Positions 2,792 through 25,442 of a DNA stretch of 64,000 nt are shown here, one piece after another. The stretch is from Paracoccus wurundjeri (lineage in GTDB: Bacteria; Pseudomonadota; Alphaproteobacteria; Rhodobacterales; Rhodobacteraceae), in contig NZ_JAUUTZ010000004.1 of the NCBI RefSeq assembly GCF_030678915.1, forward strand, positions 1 through 64,000. Direction: 5' to 3'. The translations under genes were made by a program, and so were the position numbers. Each line of letters opens with the position of its first letter. Position 1 is the first letter of the stretch. The notes under the pieces were generated by a model. That model ran no database searches. It was given only the letters and a program-made list of their open reading frames with translations, and had not been told where the DNA came from.

Positions 2792-4117
2792 CTATCCGGC
2801 GCCAATTCCGGTCGCAGGAGTCCGGCAGCTATCGGGTGGTGTCAGCAAGCCGTGGCCAAAGATATTGTCATGCCCTTGGCTACCCAGATCACGCGCCCGT
2901 ACCACAAGCTGTTCGCGAACAGCTGCTGCGGTCAGATCCGGCCTGCTTTGCAACAGCAATGCCGCCGCTGCCGTCACGAAAGGCGCCGCATAGGAGGTGC
3001 CGGTCTTGGTGCGCGCACCGCTGATCGAAGCCGCAGTCCACACATTCACACCCGGGGCGGCCAGATCGATATGCTCGCCGCGATTTGCCCGACGATAGAC
3101 CTGCCCACGCCGATCCACAGCGGTCACGGCGATGACAGGATCATACGCGGCGGGATAAGCGGGCTTGGCCGAAGGACCATAATTCCCGGCCGCTGCCACG
3201 AGCACGATATTGTCGGCTGCCATCCGGGTAATCTGAGATCTGAGCGTTGCGTTCGGCGGACCAGCCAGGGACAGATTCACGATTCTCACGTTCTGCCGGG
3301 ACAGATAATCAAGTGCCTGAATCAGCGCGAAAGCATCCGTGCGCTCATCTTCCTGAACTTTCTGGAAGGCATCGACCGCGACAAGCTGTGCTTGCGGGAT
3401 CAATCCCGGCGAGCGGCTGTCGGTATCGCCGACCAGCAAGGACGCTACTGCCGTACCGTGCAACAGCCCGGATGCTTCGGTCGGATCGCTTGCGGCGATT
3501 CGATGTACATGAATATCCGCATCCGAAAGTGCCGGATGTTCGGAATTCAGCCCCGTATCGACCATCCCGATAACGGGCAAGGAACCGCAGCCGGAATGCG
3601 TGGCCGGCCATGCGATGACCTGCCGCGCGAGACAATCGATGCCGTGGCAGGATTCGGCCTGCTCGCTACGGTAGTAATGGTTGAAATCCGCGCTTTCAGA
3701 CGAATCCAGTTCCCGGGCGATCTGCCTTGCCTGCTGCATGGTCATTTCCCTGGGCTTGCGCATACGCATAAGGGACTGGCCGGATGACAGTTCGTGTCGC
3801 GCCAGTAGCGCAAATCCCTGCTGTTCGAGAACATCCAGTTCCTCGTCAGTCAGCCCGCGCACCAGGATCTCTTCAGGCGCGCGCCGAGGCAGTGGGGCGA
3901 TCGCAGGCGCCGGGACCCGGCGGCGAATGACCCGTCCATCGTCGTCGTCATCATCCGTGATCGCGGGACGGCGAGCACGACGGGGGCCGTCATCATCGTC
4001 ATCGTCTTCGTCATCCGCCAGCGCCATTCGGACCAGCCCCGGACCATCTGGACCAAGCTGGGGTTGTACGCAGAATGCCACCATAAAGATGACAGTCATG
4101 TAAAGGATTCGTGACAT
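2792..4117 (-). CDS. secreted S8 family (subtilisin-like) serine protease with poly-Asp N-terminus
   Basis: Using the ATG at 4117 (GAAAGG upstream) rather than the upstream one gives 441 residues with an N-terminal hydrophobic export signal (MSRILYMTVIFMVAF). The catalytic triad is visible: Asp187 in IGMVDTGLN, His220 in HGTAVAS and Ser375 in GTSYAAPFV, with oxyanion Asn312 in AAAGN. Between signal and protease domain lie two acidic runs (DDEDDDDDDG near 35-44 and TDDDDDDGR near 54-62) in an Arg-rich context, followed by a likely inhibitory propeptide to about residue 165. The gene is divergent from the ECF sigma gene at 4214, which suggests it may belong to that sigma factor's regulon; this is inference. 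Confidence 0.9.
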   Translation of the reverse strand: MSRILYMTVIFMVAFCVQPQLGPDGPGLVRMALADDEDDDDDDGPRRARRPAITDDDDDDGRVIRRRVPAPAIAPLPRRAPEEILVRGLTDEELDVLEQQGFALLARHELSSGQSLMRMRKPREMTMQQARQIARELDSSESADFNHYYRSEQAESCHGIDCLARQVIAWPATHSGCGSLPVIGMVDTGLNSEHPALSDADIHVHRIAASDPTEASGLLHGTAVASLLVGDTDSRSPGLIPQAQLVAVDAFQKVQEDERTDAFALIQALDYLSRQNVRIVNLSLAGPPNATLRSQITRMAADNIVLVAAAGNYGPSAKPAYPAAYDPVIAVTAVDRRGQVYRRANRGEHIDLAAPGVNVWTAASISGARTKTGTSYAAPFVTAAAALLLQSRPDLTAAAVREQLVVRARDLGSQGHDNIFGHGLLTPPDSCRTPATGIGAG

Positions 4118-4213
4118 TGCAGCGCCTTTCGAGGTCTCGTTTCTGGACATTTACGGCCGACCCTTCCAATTATTCCGTCAGTTCAGGGAAAATAACAGGG
4201 CAGAGGAGAATCT

Positions 4214-20169: not shown

Positions 20170-20515
20170 GGCGCCTGACGCGATATACTTCAGCGGGGGC
20201 ATGGCGTGATGTGGGATTTCCCTGACAGTGCCGGCTTGTAGGCGATTACCCGGCAGCTGCGGAAACGGGGTGTCATCGTCTCGGCGGTCTGCCATGGCTA
20301 TTGCGGGTTTCTGAGCATTCGGCGCTACGAGGCCGGTTGCTGGTCGGGGGACACCGAGTGACCGGCTTTTTCCGGATCGAGGAAATTGGCGCCGTTCTTG
20401 GCGAGCTTCCTGACGTTGAACCGCCGCGGAATTGCCGAAGAGTGAAGCACTCAAAGGATGAACCCTATAACGAAGAGACTGTTCTCCCTCGTCTGTCCTG
20501 CTGAACTTCGCGAAC
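20170..20515 (+). pseudogene. remnant of a DJ-1/PfpI family gene
   Basis: Reading across frames gives APDAIYFSGG, then MWDFPDSAGL, a TAG stop, AITRQLRKRGVIVSAVCHGY with CGFL directly after, then after another shift RLLVGGHRVTGF and EEIGAVLGELPD. These match, in order, the central part of DJ-1/PfpI/Hsp31-like proteins: the GGHG-x-MWDFPD loop, the nucleophile elbow AVCHG and the HRVTGF strand. One base appears to be missing in the GGHG codon run. At least two frameshifts and one stop make it non-functional. Confidence 0.7.
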
Positions 20516-20529
20516 GCCGTGTTCGGTGT

Positions 20530-20850
20530 TTCGTAAGAACCATGCCGATTACAGCAGCGGCCCCCAGATACACGGAATGGCTGGCCAAAGCCGGGATCGA
20601 GATCTCGGTCGGCAGTGTCGGGGATGCCCATGACAATGGGCTGGCCGAAAGCATCATCGGTCTGAAGGCCGACGTCATCAACGTCCTGGAGCCTTGTCCA
20701 TTGCTAAAGTCGAACGGGAGACGCTGAAATGGGTCGACCGGCACAATACCGAATGCCTGCACAGCGCCATCGGATATGTCAGGCCACACGGCGCAGAGGA
20801 GGCTTTTTACGACAACTTGAAAAGTAGCTTAACTATTGAACCAACCCCTT
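20530..20850 (+). mobile_element. remnant of an IS3 family transposase (OrfB C-terminus)
   Basis: PRYTEWLAKAGIEISVGSVG followed by DAHDNGLAESIIGL matches the catalytic end of IS3 OrfB integrases, including the last acidic residue of the DDE triad in LAES. After a frameshift near 20695 the match resumes with VERETLKWVDRHNTECLHSA and IGYVRPHGAEEAFYDN. The first two-thirds of the transposase, OrfA and both terminal repeats are not found. It is an inactive fragment directly after the DJ-1 remnant. Confidence 0.75.
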
Positions 20851-21251
20851 ACGGTAAACCCAAGGCGGTTCAAAGTGACGATCTCTATTTTATAAGCTGA
20901 TACAACCAAAGGTTGCTGGCCTTCTGGGCTGCGAGCCCCCCGCGACCATCCCATACTTTATTGTATTTTATAACAGCCGAAACTACGATTTCCGACACCG
21001 GAGCACTACGAAGGTACGATTGCCCAGCTTCGGGCTCGGCGGCGGGAACATCAATATTTTAAGGTAATGAAATAGTTTTGCAGGAAATACGGCTTACGTT
21101 GGATTTCAATGTCCGGGAATAATCGCTGCCTTTTTGTTACGACCGTATCCCGAGAGTATCTGTGTGGTGGTCGGATAACATTGGAGGATCGGTTTGGCGG
21201 GTAATTCGATCGGTACAGAATCATCTGCCAGAAACTTACGTTCGATCTCTT
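20851..21251. other. intergenic region without a recognised gene
   Basis: About 400 comparatively AT-rich bases follow the transposase fragment up to the convergent end of parA. No inverted repeat of the IS, no target duplication and no coding pattern could be recognised. It is probably decayed DNA. Confidence 0.4.
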
Positions 21252-22001
21252 TTATCCGTTCACTCGTTCTTTGATTTCTTCGAACAGGGCCTGATAGGCT
21301 TTGCCGGCTCTGCTACCCGGTGCGGTGACCAAAACCGGGGCACGGGCGAGACCCATGCGCTCGATCTCGGAGGTGAAGGGGATTTTCGTTTGTGCAAAAC
21401 GTTCAGGATACGCATCCGTCATCTCGGCAATCATTTCGCTATGCAGGCTCTTGATGCCCTGCACCATCGAAAAGAAGGCGTGGATCCTTTTCCTGGGCAG
21501 GCCGGAATCGCGGAAAAATTCCAGCAACTGCCTGAAGGTGCGTTGGGACAGCGTGGTGGGGATCACCGGCACGATTACTGCATCTGCCGCGTGAAAGACA
21601 TTTTCAGACAGCATCGAGATGTTCGGCGGACAGTCCAGCAAAATGATGTCGTAATCGGATTTGACGGCCTTCAGGGCCTTTTTCAGTCGCGACTGGCCGT
21701 TCTTCATCTGTGACAGGAACAGCTCGAAATCGCGAAAGTTCATATTCGCGGGCAGGATGTCGAGATTGTCGTAGTCGCTGCCCCGGATCGCCTTGGCGAA
21801 GCGTTCGATATCCTCGAAAAAACGTGCCCCGGTCAGCTTCTTGGACGGCTTTACGCGGAAATAAAACCCCGAGGCGCCCTGAGGATCGAGATCGCATAGT
21901 AATGTCCGGTGACCCGATGCCGCAAAGGCATAGGCGAGGTTTACAGCGGTCGCCGTCTTGCCGACGCCTCCCTTGTTGGAATAGCAGGCAATGATTTGCA
22001 T
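21252..22001 (-). CDS. ParA family ATPase of the CHAD operon
   Basis: The 249-residue protein has the deviant Walker A box NKGGVGKTAT with signature Lys10 and Lys15, Walker A' DLDPQG and Walker B IILLDCPP, the marks of ParA/MinD-type dimerising ATPases. There is no N-terminal helix-turn-helix, as in small Ia-less ParAs used for cargo positioning. Its start overlaps the stop of the CHAD gene by one base (TGATG), and the RHH-like gene lies upstream, so all three are translationally coupled. No ParB or parS is present. A role in placing a polyphosphate-associated cargo on the nucleoid is a hypothesis from the CHAD partner. Confidence 0.88.
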   Translation of the reverse strand: MQIIACYSNKGGVGKTATAVNLAYAFAASGHRTLLCDLDPQGASGFYFRVKPSKKLTGARFFEDIERFAKAIRGSDYDNLDILPANMNFRDFELFLSQMKNGQSRLKKALKAVKSDYDIILLDCPPNISMLSENVFHAADAVIVPVIPTTLSQRTFRQLLEFFRDSGLPRKRIHAFFSMVQGIKSLHSEMIAEMTDAYPERFAQTKIPFTSEIERMGLARAPVLVTAPGSRAGKAYQALFEEIKERVNG

Positions 22002-23518
22002 CAGAATCCCTTTCTGTCGTGGAACAGTTTGCGGATGGTCCGCTGCATCTTGTTGCTGTTGAAGCGCGCGAAGGCGGCGATGATCTTCTCTCGCTCTGCG
22101 ACTTGTTTCTGGTGCAGCACGATGACCAGTGCGCCGATGCTCTGGGCGATTTCGAGTTTGTTCGGATCATTGGCCAGATCATCGGCAAAGGTCAGCAGCT
22201 TGGTCTGCTGCACTGCGTAATCATTGAACCAGCCCAAGGAATCCTGTAGCCTCTTCAGTGGCTTGAGGGAAGCGGTGAAGTCATCTCGCGGAAAGATCGG
22301 GCCAAAGAATTCCATCAGGTAGCGCAGCTTCTTGCATTCGATGCGCAATTCGTGAACCTGTTCGTCAGGTGTTCCGGCATTCAGATCCGCTGCGATGCGG
22401 CGGATCCGGCGATAGCGTTTCCAGATCAGTTCGCGGGCCAGACCGTAGGAGGCGCGGCTGGCATTCGGGCCGGGCAGAAGTTTGCGCTGCTTGGCAAACA
22501 TCCTGGCCAGCGCCTTGATGTCCTGCTGATAGCCCTTGCTGTGTAGATGTGCGGTAAGCGTAACCTGTTCCGTGGCGCGCATGCGGCGAAGCCGCGCGAA
22601 CATCTTGTCCAGCCCGGAATGCATCCTTTCCGGCACGAGATCGTAGAAGCTCTGTTGTTCCAGCAGATAGACGTCCAGATCGCGCAGTGGCCCGGTCAGC
22701 GCCATCAGCTCAGAAAACTGCGTTCTTAGTTCAGCCGTCTGTTGTGAGTCGTAGACACCCTTGAACAGACTCAGGACCGAGCGGATCTTGCGCAACGCGA
22801 TACGGTAATCATGCAAAAATTCGGTGTCGAGGTCGGCAATGATACCTTGTTCATTCGCGCGGGCGACAGGCAGATAACTGTTGATCAGATTGCTTGCCGC
22901 GTCGAAGGCGGTTTCCTCGCGTCCGATCTTTATGCTCGGCTTGGCAAGATACCCGGTGCAGGCAGGCTGGATCGTTCGATAGAGATTGCCGGTCGCAAGT
23001 GGCGTAGCCCCGCAGTCACGTATGCGTGCGACCAGATCGTGCAGGGCCCGATCGTAGCCGCGCAGGCCCTGCGGCGTCAGCAAGATCACAGCATTGCCAT
23101 TGGTCGCTTCCAATTCACGCAATTCGGCGCGCGCCCGGATTTTGCCCTCGTCATCGACCAGCGCCAGCCGGCCGGACCGGGTCATCCCCGAGGCGATGTG
23201 CAGCAGTGCGCGCAGCGAAGACAAATCCGCAAGCGCTGCCTTGACCGGCCCTTCGACGAACTCAGTGACAAAGCGGGCATCGGGTGTGGCGGGTTGGCAA
23301 TGTGTCGCACCGGAGGCTGACAGCAACTCCATCCGGTTGCCATCTTCCCAAAGCAGCCGACGGGAACGTCGCAGGCGCTGATCGAAACAATCACGGATCG
23401 CGAAGGGACGGCTGCCTTCTGCCCAGTCCAAAACCGGCATCAGGTTCTGCGCATTGCATTCGGCCAGCTTGGTCAGCCACGCGGCCGGCATGTAATATGT
23501 TTCACCCGTGGCGATCAT
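22001..23518 (-). CDS. CHAD domain protein with degenerate CYTH-like N-terminus
   Basis: The 505-residue protein has a C-terminal CHAD domain (about 205-500) rich in conserved His, Arg and Lys: FLHDYRIALRKIRSVLSLF, LTGPLRDLDVYL and VHELRIECKKLRYLMEFF. CHAD domains bind inorganic polyphosphate. The first 200 residues contain short segments like a CYTH domain (RARAELRELE) but lack the N-terminal ExExK catalytic motif, so triphosphatase activity is unlikely. The start codon overlaps the stop of the small upstream gene (ATGA) and the stop overlaps the parA start. It may be the adaptor linking the ParA ATPase to polyphosphate granules; this is inference. Confidence 0.85.
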   Translation of the reverse strand: MIATGETYYMPAAWLTKLAECNAQNLMPVLDWAEGSRPFAIRDCFDQRLRRSRRLLWEDGNRMELLSASGATHCQPATPDARFVTEFVEGPVKAALADLSSLRALLHIASGMTRSGRLALVDDEGKIRARAELRELEATNGNAVILLTPQGLRGYDRALHDLVARIRDCGATPLATGNLYRTIQPACTGYLAKPSIKIGREETAFDAASNLINSYLPVARANEQGIIADLDTEFLHDYRIALRKIRSVLSLFKGVYDSQQTAELRTQFSELMALTGPLRDLDVYLLEQQSFYDLVPERMHSGLDKMFARLRRMRATEQVTLTAHLHSKGYQQDIKALARMFAKQRKLLPGPNASRASYGLARELIWKRYRRIRRIAADLNAGTPDEQVHELRIECKKLRYLMEFFGPIFPRDDFTASLKPLKRLQDSLGWFNDYAVQQTKLLTFADDLANDPNKLEIAQSIGALVIVLHQKQVAEREKIIAAFARFNSNKMQRTIRKLFHDRKGF

Positions 23519-23694
23519 GCCTTCGGCTTTCGTGGCCGCCCAAGATAATCCTCGATCAGTTTTTCGATAATCTTCTGCGCACTCGTCTCTTCTTCGATTG
23601 CGCGGAGTTTGAGAGCCTTCAATGTCTTGCCGGAAAGGCGTAAAGAGGTGTTCTTCTTGTCACCTTCGTCTTTCGATCTCTTTGCTTTGGCCAT
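23515..23694 (-). CDS. small ribbon-helix-helix-like protein
   Basis: Starting at the ATG at 23694, the 59-residue protein is highly charged: a Lys-rich tail, then NTSLRLSGKTLKALKLRAIE and EETSAQKIIEKLIEDYLG. A short strand followed by two helices is the ribbon-helix-helix (CopG/Arc/ParD-like) pattern. In-frame ATGs exist at 23721 and 23763, but a 16-base palindrome at 23713-23728 lies just upstream of 23694 and would otherwise fall inside the gene, so the shorter start is preferred. It overlaps the CHAD start (ATGA). It could be the operon's autorepressor or the DNA/ATPase-contacting partner of ParA, as RHH proteins are for small ParAs. Confidence 0.7.
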   Translation of the reverse strand: MAKAKRSKDEGDKKNTSLRLSGKTLKALKLRAIEEETSAQKIIEKLIEDYLGRPRKPKA

Positions 23695-23712
23695 GATCTG
23701 ATTCTGTTTTTG

Positions 23713-23728
23713 TGACGTCATGATGTCA
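23713..23728 (-). promoter_or_regulatory. palindrome before the RHH-CHAD-parA operon
   Basis: TGACGTCATGATGTCA is symmetrical at 14 of 16 positions and ends 18 bases before the chosen start codon. It is composed of two TGACnTCA-like half sites, a layout suited to an RHH dimer-of-dimers. It is a likely autoregulatory operator. Confidence 0.5.
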
Positions 23729-24023
23729 TATGTTGTAGAATACGACAAACAGATAGCCGGCACGAGTGAGGAAACCGGCCGGAGGGGCCTGGTATCATCG
23801 ATTTACCGTATTGGATTTATCGCATAACTGGAGAGTTGGCAGGGACATTGGCATCGCGGCTCATGTCCTGTCTTGATTCCGCCAATCGCCATGATGATGA
23901 CTAAGAATGCAGCGAATAAAAATTATATCGCTGCCTGAATGAGCGCAGACCCATACAGAGGCCGCTGATCGACGCGATACCTGATATGCCGAGAAGATCG
24001 GCGCTGATCCAAAACGGGAAAAT

Positions 24024-25442
24024 TCACTGTAGGCTCTCGCCCTGCTGTGCGCTATCGACTGAAGCGGCTGCCTTGACCACGGCTTCCACGAGGATCTGTG
24101 GTTTATAACCAAGCTTTGCCGGGGTCAGGCCCATGCGCAGGATAACAAGGTCGCGCGAGGGAATGATCGTCATGGTCTGTCCATCGTGACCAAGCAGCCA
24201 ATAGGCGTCGTCCGGGATATCGTAATCCGCATCTGGTTTTTTATCCCGAGACTGACCGGTACGCGGGCCATGCAGCCAGACATGCCGGCCATATTCGCCG
24301 TCCGACGCCACCGTCGGCGTCCGCATCCAGTCGACCCAGCCCGCCGGCAGGGTGCGCTTACCCTCCCATACACCATCATTGAGCAGGAACTGCCCGAACC
24401 GGGCCCAGTCCCGCGCCGACGCGTAAAGATAGGATGAGCCCGCGAAAGTCCCCCTGGCATCCGTTTCCAGAACAGCGGTCGACATGCCAAGCGGGCCAAA
24501 CAGGACCTTGCCCGGCCAATCGAGGGCGTCCCGGGGGTTCTCGAACGCGTTTTGCCAGATCCGTGACAGAAGCACGCTCGTGCCGCTCGAATAGCTGAAC
24601 ATTTCTCCCGGCGCCGCGATCAGGGGCTTGCCGGCGGGGACGGACGCCATATCCGGCTCGAGGTAAAGCATGCGGGTGACGTCGGTGACGGATCCGTAAT
24701 TCTCATTGAATGCCAATCCGCTTTCCATCCCGAGAAGATCGGCAATGGTGATCTTTGCTCGGTCGTCCTTCCTCCATTGCGGTAGCAGTGCATCATCCGC
24801 GACGGACAGCATATCCTCGCGGACCAACGTGCCGATGAGAGCGGCGGTCACCGTCTTGGTCATCGACCAGCCGAGCAAGGGTTGATCGACATTGCCCTCC
24901 GCGCCGTAACGCTCGCCGATGATGCGTCCGTCCCGGAGCACCACGACGGCACGCATATCCGGCCCGGTGAGTTTCGGGTCGTCCAGCGCGGCCGCTAGCG
25001 CCGGATGCTCCGAGGTGATCATTACCGGCCTGTCTGGCTGATCGCTTTCAGCTGCCGCCGACGAGCGCGCCGCGGCCGCGAGATCGTCATCGGGGACCAC
25101 AGCACAACCGGTTCCCTGACGATGCACCGCGAGTCCGTTGCCAAACAGGCCGAGCAGGCCCGCATGCACGGTGCCCTCGGATGCGTCGACCTGCACCCGC
25201 ATCAGTCGCAGCAGGGGATGACCCGGCGCCTGGACATCCTTTGCCAGCACTGCCTCGGGATCTCGCCCTGCAATGAACATGTTGGAGCAGACGATCTTGG
25301 CAGCATAGCCCGATCCGACACGAATGAGGTCAGGGGGCGCGACGTAGAGCCAAACGGACAACCCGGCCATGAGGGTCACAAGTATGCCGATAAACCATTT
25401 CAGAATGATCCAGATCTTCCGCAAGTGAGCTTCCCCGGGCAT
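24024..25442 (-). CDS. membrane-anchored serine hydrolase (beta-lactamase class C-like)
   Basis: The 472-residue protein has one N-terminal membrane segment (about 13-34) followed by a periplasmic region of about 100 residues and a beta-lactamase/transpeptidase-like domain. The nucleophile motif is SMTK (Ser193-Lys196), the second motif YSSG (Tyr284), and the third appears as HDGQ near the C-terminus, in place of KTG. This is typical of the large family of esterases, peptidases and amidases related to class C enzymes, so antibiotic hydrolysis should not be assumed. It lies downstream on the same strand relative to nothing obvious; its operon context gives no substrate. Confidence 0.85.
   Translation of the reverse strand: MPGEAHLRKIWIILKWFIGILVTLMAGLSVWLYVAPPDLIRVGSGYAAKIVCSNMFIAGRDPEAVLAKDVQAPGHPLLRLMRVQVDASEGTVHAGLLGLFGNGLAVHRQGTGCAVVPDDDLAAAARSSAAAESDQPDRPVMITSEHPALAAALDDPKLTGPDMRAVVVLRDGRIIGERYGAEGNVDQPLLGWSMTKTVTAALIGTLVREDMLSVADDALLPQWRKDDRAKITIADLLGMESGLAFNENYGSVTDVTRMLYLEPDMASVPAGKPLIAAPGEMFSYSSGTSVLLSRIWQNAFENPRDALDWPGKVLFGPLGMSTAVLETDARGTFAGSSYLYASARDWARFGQFLLNDGVWEGKRTLPAGWVDWMRTPTVASDGEYGRHVWLHGPRTGQSRDKKPDADYDIPDDAYWLLGHDGQTMTIIPSRDLVILRMGLTPAKLGYKPQILVEAVVKAAASVDSAQQGESLQ

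Follow-up and report, generated by a model that had tools for sequence, protein, structure and literature searches.

In carboxysome positioning by McdA-McdB, and likewise in PpfA/ParC for chemotaxis clusters, a ParA-type ATPase acts on the nucleoid with a cargo-specific partner (PMC13052382, PMC10241942). CHAD proteins localize to polyphosphate (polyP) granules (PMC9239181, citing Tumlirsch and Jendrossek), and a crystal structure of Chlorobium CtCHAD with polyP has been reported, CHAD domains being described as without enzymatic activity (PMC6537752). A 2025 review states that the proteins placing polyP granules in Caulobacter have not been identified and that the need for energy in granule localization remains to be seen (PMC13052382). 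We analyzed a 64,000-nucleotide stretch of the Paracoccus wurundjeri genome, hereafter the window, which opens contig C34 (243,772 bases) of a 5.08-Mb assembly in 74 contigs. It carries an operon for a small ribbon-helix-helix (RHH) protein, a CHAD protein and a ParA ATPase. A placement system of the McdA-McdB kind is only proposed here, with a CHAD protein of the kind that binds polyP as the candidate for its cargo protein. We assign a probability of roughly 55% to the reading that this operon serves polyP and centers on a ParA ATPase that places polyP bodies or shares them out.

A sequence-only reading of the window had described three genes overlapping by 1-4 bases, and the overlaps that we measured were 4 bases for RHH/CHAD and 1 base for CHAD/ParA (minus strand, 23694-21252). 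That reading had set synteny beyond this strain as its own test beforehand, and the operon passed it. We scanned a collection of species genomes with a CHAD alignment and took the best 80 of 183 relatives further. In 73 of these 80 loci, which had been chosen by CHAD alone, the gene next downstream on the same strand encoded ParA; three of the seven misses were contig ends (L083, L101, L103), leaving 77 loci with room for the gene, and L091 had ParA only as a 127-aa fragment. A CYTH gene followed in 56 of the 80, the window's type of RHH was present in 35, and any of the three RHH types described below in 42. The loci include Paracoccus, Ruegeria, Shinella, Nitrosomonas, Alcaligenaceae, Desulfobulbaceae, Geobacteraceae, Neiella and Pontiella. 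Near-duplicates were dropped before counting, the RHH/ParA tallies leave out four loci without room (L062, L083, L101, L103), and the pairs L014/L065, L017/L081 and L020/L064, each on contigs of equal length, are probably the same contigs.

Within the host family, the CHAD profile was matched in 21 of 149 genomes. Of 14 full-length genes for this CHAD type, 13 were accompanied by a full-length parA and the fourteenth (L015) by a fragment of one, and one further match was a contig-end fragment (L025). parA was found at none of six weaker, canonical-type CHAD loci, for which the flanks extended only ~0.8-1.5 kb, and CHAD was absent from the two other sampled genomes of the window's genus. Six Paracoccus plasmid loci had the order RHH-CHAD-ParA-CYTH-NUDIX, with a second CYTH gene in four. 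Some Paracoccus plasmid copies were damaged, with parA split over two frames in L004 and ambiguous bases in L006 and L007. The three-gene unit first proposed stood as a gene order, but the unit proved larger, taking in CYTH and, at some loci, NUDIX as well, and its 3' end is damaged in the window.

The ParA protein matched Pfam AAA_31 (ParA type) with an E of 3.8e-41 and carries a KGGVGKT motif with the signature lysine, as had been noticed earlier, at K10. K10, K15, D39 and D123, which make up the deviant Walker A motif and the Walker B aspartate of the ParA/MinD family, were kept in 60 of 60 alignment rows. The best solved chain was the ParA family protein 8ray, with Soj among the next matches. 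No ParB had been seen beside ParA, and this held: ParB_N gave no match on the window's contig and three in the genome, on C4, C12 and C23. CHAD and ParA distances correlated over 60 loci (Spearman 0.69, with 0 of 2000 permutations as high), as expected if both genes travel together. In a tree of 128 ParA sequences, 62 CHAD-linked rows grouped on the same side of a branch supported at 100/99, in a bootstrap that had not settled, and four (L162, L163, L167, L172) lay outside it. In the reverse direction, a ParA profile run against 398 Pseudomonadota genomes found a match in 68. CHAD was present somewhere in 57 of these 68 genomes as compared with 136 of the 330 without a related ParA, a suggestive difference that is confounded by relatedness. 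Related ParAs without CHAD within the inspected span (up to 8 kb, less on short contigs) were widespread, at 62 loci among L164-L227, and several of 20 such neighborhoods held genes that we take to be cysM-like, RnfH-like and truA-like.

The link to polyP, also drawn by the sequence-only reading, is strong, and it begins with the CHAD protein, which matched Pfam CHAD with an E of 4.6e-58 and has a CYTH/TTM-like N-terminal domain (residues ~1-170) followed by a long CHAD domain (~195-500). Its structure model (pLDDT 93.7) had as best Foldseek match 6qva, the Chlorobium CHAD-polyphosphate complex (TM 0.94 by target, rmsd 1.7, 32% identity). Weaker fold matches were TTM/CYTH proteins, namely mouse thiamine triphosphatase (E 3.6e-4), 2gfg (E 1.5e-3) and full-length YgiF; from the strands modeled there, these matches probably fall on the N-terminal half. 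At the level of fold, the earlier label of a CYTH-like/CHAD protein held, the CYTH part scoring modestly.

The CtCHAD residues whose change lowers polyP binding are listed in PMC6537752, and we took their numbers from that source and read their counterparts off an HMMER alignment. Eleven of the 12 mutated positions were identical or basic in the window's protein. CtCHAD H253, R256, R260, R296, R418, Y419, K386 and K441 correspond to the identical residues H236, R239, R243, R279, R399, Y400, K367 and K422, and R438, K389 and K390 to the basic residues K419, R370 and R371; the one changed position is R385, here W366. These residues suggest that the CHAD protein binds polyP. Elsewhere in the operon and around it, the polyP link extends to the downstream CYTH gene, to NUDIX in some loci and to PPK1, PhoU or Pst genes near a few copies. 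PPK1 was found in four of the 80 loci (adjoining CHAD in L092, L094 and L097, and 2.5 kb away in L107), PhoU in L107 and in the plasmid locus L003, and one Paracoccus plasmid copy adjoins pstCAB-phoU-phoB. The host genome has one CHAD gene and one PPK1.

The ExExK motif did not occur in the first 80 residues of any of 83 CHAD proteins. With K or R allowed in the last place, an ExExK-like motif was seen in one of the 83 within the first 80 residues and in six within the first 180, whereas 68 of 71 separate CYTH open reading frames (ORFs) carried strict ExExK. On this pattern the fused CYTH-like domain looks non-catalytic, and the enzyme would be the product of the separate gene. The CYTH sequences of L072 and L091 read EIERR in place of ExExK. 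A second CYTH-like ORF lay upstream of CHAD in the opposite direction in L033 (short), L034 (two pieces), L054, L061 and L087.

In the window this separate CYTH gene is broken, a feature that the sequence-only reading had not included. A tblastn search with the CYTH protein of L033 (P. denitrificans DSM 413, in which the RHH, CHAD, ParA and CYTH frames are all open) placed codons 1-31 at 21163-21255 and, in another frame, codons 32-53 at 21098-21163 (E 1.4e-8). Since this frameshifted stump lies beside transposase-like debris, the operon of the window is truncated at its 3' end. Of the two transposase-like ORFs, one matched rve_3 weakly (E 0.0011, under the cut-off) and the other had no match. 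A genome-wide search with PF01928 gave no CYTH match, which is a weak test, as the intact sister CYTH itself falls just under the cut-off of that model.

The 59-residue protein had been called RHH-like. It scored just under the RHH_1 cut-off (E 0.0025, 18.2 bits against 20.5), while its ortholog in L108 passed at 21.2 bits. Its model has helices at residues 22-34 and 39-52 (mean pLDDT 78) and a low-confidence tail, of which residues 1-14 are basic; an RHH profile run against the sequences of solved structures gave no match up to an E of 1. A second feature new to this analysis is a 16-bp site of tandem boxes upstream of the gene. After dereplication at 70%, TGACGTCA was found upstream in 27 of 28 RHH-bearing loci as compared with two of 43 RHH-less loci, and at 90% in 34 of 38 as compared with three of 50. 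One of the two RHH-less loci with the box, L036, carries a decayed RHH. Apparent RHH remnants were seen just before CHAD in L036 (Nitrosomonas europaea) and, by eye, in L037 (Shinella), with the CHAD, ParA and CYTH frames open. Of the other 255 eight-base palindromes, none reached more than two of the 28 RHH-bearing loci. Both TGACGTCA and the GTATATAC site described below were spotted by eye and then counted, and the all-palindrome control was run for TGACGTCA and not for GTATATAC.

In 30 of 34 aligned upstream regions a TTG stands at -27 to -29 of the box, a spacing that puts a -10-like hexamer at the usual distance over the first box; the two elements probably form a promoter. Most of the 34 sites consist of two boxes, L103 and L108 being among the few with more, and the second box of L033 and L034 is one base off TGACGTCA. 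The 5.08-Mb genome has a single exact copy of the 16-mer, and the closest site elsewhere shows two mismatches, so a wider RHH regulon was set aside. From this arrangement the RHH protein is best read as a putative autorepressor of its own operon.

Two further RHH types occupied the slot before CHAD. The second, in L018, L059, L079, L080, L087 and L160, has an alanine-rich C-terminal tail and was RHH_9-like, below cut-off, in the one protein scanned; GTATATAC lay upstream in six of six of these loci as compared with three of 88 others. The third, with a lysine-rich tail of 72-76 residues, was present in three of five Geobacteraceae loci (L107, L109, L111), and the one scanned, L111, scored over the Arc cut-off; in the remaining two, L106 and L110, we recognized no RHH. 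A basic stretch precedes the RHH domain in all three types (27/27, 6/6 and 3/3). ParA/MinD partner proteins use positively charged disordered N-termini (PMC10241942), and since the basic tails fit this description, a second role of the RHH protein as ParA partner is possible. The sequence-only reading had offered the RHH protein as partner or repressor. The repressor half gained support from a box that overlaps the -10-like element and co-occurs with the RHH gene, and the case for the partner half, made by the basic N-terminal tails, is circumstantial. An RHH protein, CdbA, has been described as important for nucleoid organisation (PMC7156744).

Table 1. Coordinates of the operon, its upstream elements and neighboring features in the window.
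Feature	Position	Strand	Remarks
RHH gene	23694-23515	minus	59 aa; first gene of operon
CHAD gene	23518-22001	minus	505 aa
ParA gene	22001-21252	minus	249 aa
CYTH remnant	21098-21255	minus	~53 codons in two frames, after parA
Transposase-like fragments	20458-20900	plus	adjoin broken CYTH gene
-35-like element TTGTCG	23743-23748	minus	TTG 28 bases before TGACGTCA box
Tandem 8-bp boxes TGACATCA+TGACGTCA, 16 bp	23713-23728	minus	proposed RHH operator
-10-like element CATCAT	23720-23725	minus	overlapped by tandem boxes
Beta-lactamase-family protein	24027-25442	minus	upstream of operon
Subtilase-family protein	2795-4150	minus	elsewhere in window

We propose the following course of events. The CHAD protein would coat polyP bodies, and ParA bound to ATP on the nucleoid would hold or draw the coated bodies. 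ATP hydrolysis, triggered by CHAD or by the RHH tail, would release ParA, and the bodies would become spaced along the nucleoid and be shared at division. The CYTH enzyme (with NUDIX in some relatives; CYTH is broken here) would handle short polyP, polyP ends or other products. The RHH protein would bind the tandem TGACATCA-TGACGTCA boxes over the -10-like element and keep its own operon low, and its basic tail may also touch ParA. The ParA-driven positioning, the contact between ParA and CHAD and the repression are what we infer from gene order, domains and the upstream site. Overall the earlier interpretation was partly supported, and the part in which ParA positions or segregates polyP bodies in this strain is the conditional one. 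A fuller version can be put forward only tentatively, and we hold it to be less probable than its failure: a horizontally moving positioning system for polyP bodies, in which ParA would form gradients, CHAD with its non-catalytic CYTH-like part as docking site would be the adaptor, an exchangeable RHH would both repress the operon and stimulate ParA, and CYTH and NUDIX would trim the granule.

Several observations weigh against a polyP-placing ParA. Four CHAD operons with room for the gene lack ParA (L072, L095, L102, L104), and it is likewise missing within 6 kb at three plasmid CHAD loci that are more distantly related (L008, L009, L010). Seen from the other gene, 62 of the 68 fetched related-ParA loci, the window's own excluded, had no CHAD of this type within up to 8 kb, less on short contigs, and six had one. 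Leaving out Geobacteraceae lowers the distance correlation to 0.49, no RHH was recognized in 44 of 91 loci, and the loci are unevenly related, with many from Ruegeria and Paracoccus, so that the counts overstate independence. Finally, the broken CYTH gene may be a sign of a decaying operon in this strain.

The main rival is that ParA controls polyP enzymes without placing anything. The operon would then serve polyP handling or phosphate stress, with ParA as a regulatory ATPase of CHAD and CYTH in assembly, enzyme control or signalling, which we regard as rather unlikely. Its metabolic neighbors (CYTH, NUDIX, PPK1, PhoU, Pst), the lack of an adjoining CHAD at most of the related ParAs fetched, and the four ParA-less operons that keep CHAD, and in L072 also CYTH, speak for such a role, yet ParA/MinD ATPases place cargos through a partner protein (PMC10241942) and all 60 ParA rows keep the Walker residues. 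Partition of DNA, by contrast, would make CHAD a passenger, with the upstream tandem boxes serving as the centromere and the RHH protein, bound to them, as the partner of a small ParA. An RHH protein and a ParA without ParB are also the make-up of the type Ib systems ParF-ParG and delta-omega, the tails of the window's RHH type are basic in all 27 rows, and six full-length relatives are on plasmid records. A search for RepC as the sign of a plasmid origin gave no match in the genome, with a model that responded in only 1 of 14 control genomes, and so lends little weight to either a chromosomal or a plasmid C34. Yet other relatives lie on a 4.15-Mb contig (L018) and on contigs of >1 Mb (L045, L049, L082), so the operon is not confined to plasmids; most of the 34 aligned sites hold two boxes and no array; the site lies over a -10-like element; and the linkage to CHAD, CYTH, PPK1 and PhoU would go unexplained. 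We put plasmid partition low, as improbable, because there is one exact site in the genome, no ParB beside ParA, and ParA is kept after CHAD in 40 loci without a recognized RHH.

Those same 40 loci also count against the RHH protein being the true ParA partner, one that would tie ParA to granules coated with CHAD and repress its own operon only incidentally, as in ParG and omega. Here the presence of three RHH types (RHH_1, RHH_9-like and Arc-like) in one slot, all with basic N-terminal stretches of the kind used by ParA/MinD partners, is in favor, as is the retention of ParA in all 47 RHH-bearing loci with room while the four ParA-less loci have no RHH (Fisher p 0.051, uncorrected for relatedness). 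RHH proteins that bind DNA commonly have basic tails, and we find this true-partner role doubtful. A chance neighborhood or annotation artefact would suit the patchy occurrence of CHAD in the host family. It was refuted by the synteny, and with 73 of 80 loci in several classes and phyla, overlapping genes and a conserved operator we give it practically no weight. Placement or sharing of polyP bodies by ParA is the reading that we carry forward.

If the fuller version given above is true, this would be, to our knowledge, the first ATPase-driven placement system for a polyP body. The operon offers a named ATPase, a candidate granule adaptor and a candidate repressor in records of Paracoccus (including P. 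denitrificans DSM 413), Ruegeria and Nitrosomonas, so the question of polyP granule placement becomes experimentally testable, and the cis-site can be used for finding and controlling the system.

Among known systems, type Ib partition (ParF-ParG, delta-omega) combines a small ParA and an RHH protein whose binding site is a set of tandem boxes ahead of the operon that encodes it. The locus resembles it in having an RHH protein with a basic tail beside a small ParA and differs in that the RHH gene comes first and is not always recognized, in its one site in place of a centromere array of several boxes, and in the CHAD and CYTH genes of the operon. It lacks the ParB beside ParA that marks ParABS. 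AlgP of Pseudomonas aeruginosa is a histone-H1-like protein, not known to be an ATPase, and is compared here by description only. It places or spaces polyP granules through its DNA-binding part (PMC13052382, PMC9239181). The CHAD fold is shared with the phosins and other CHAD proteins (Chlorobium CtCHAD 6QVA, the Ralstonia CHAD proteins, E. coli YgiF), and with CtCHAD also the long CHAD type and the polyP-site residues; in contrast to them, the protein of the window has an N-terminal CYTH-like domain without ExExK and is encoded with ParA and a separate CYTH. By the same motif it differs from YgiF-type CYTH-CHAD triphosphatases, whose N-terminal CYTH domain is defined by ExExK.

The closest gene neighborhood is the conserved folD-ppk-parA-CHAD group of Acidithiobacillus (PMC10892726, section 3.3; PMC6416229), in which parA adjoins both a CHAD gene and PPK1. 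The likeness of that ParA to ours is one of gene neighborhood. The CHAD protein there has an annotated CYTH domain and is described as an adenylate cyclase, the available parts of the two papers mention no RHH and treat copper resistance and cAMP/second messengers, and they contain no positioning proposal for the neighborhood. Nor did the matches listed among Creative Commons-licensed PubMed Central papers, in the parts available, include a proposal of a ParA-CHAD positioning system or of ParA-driven polyP placement. With the polyP link strong, what this operon adds to the systems described so far is the proposal that a ParA ATPase may drive the placement of polyP.

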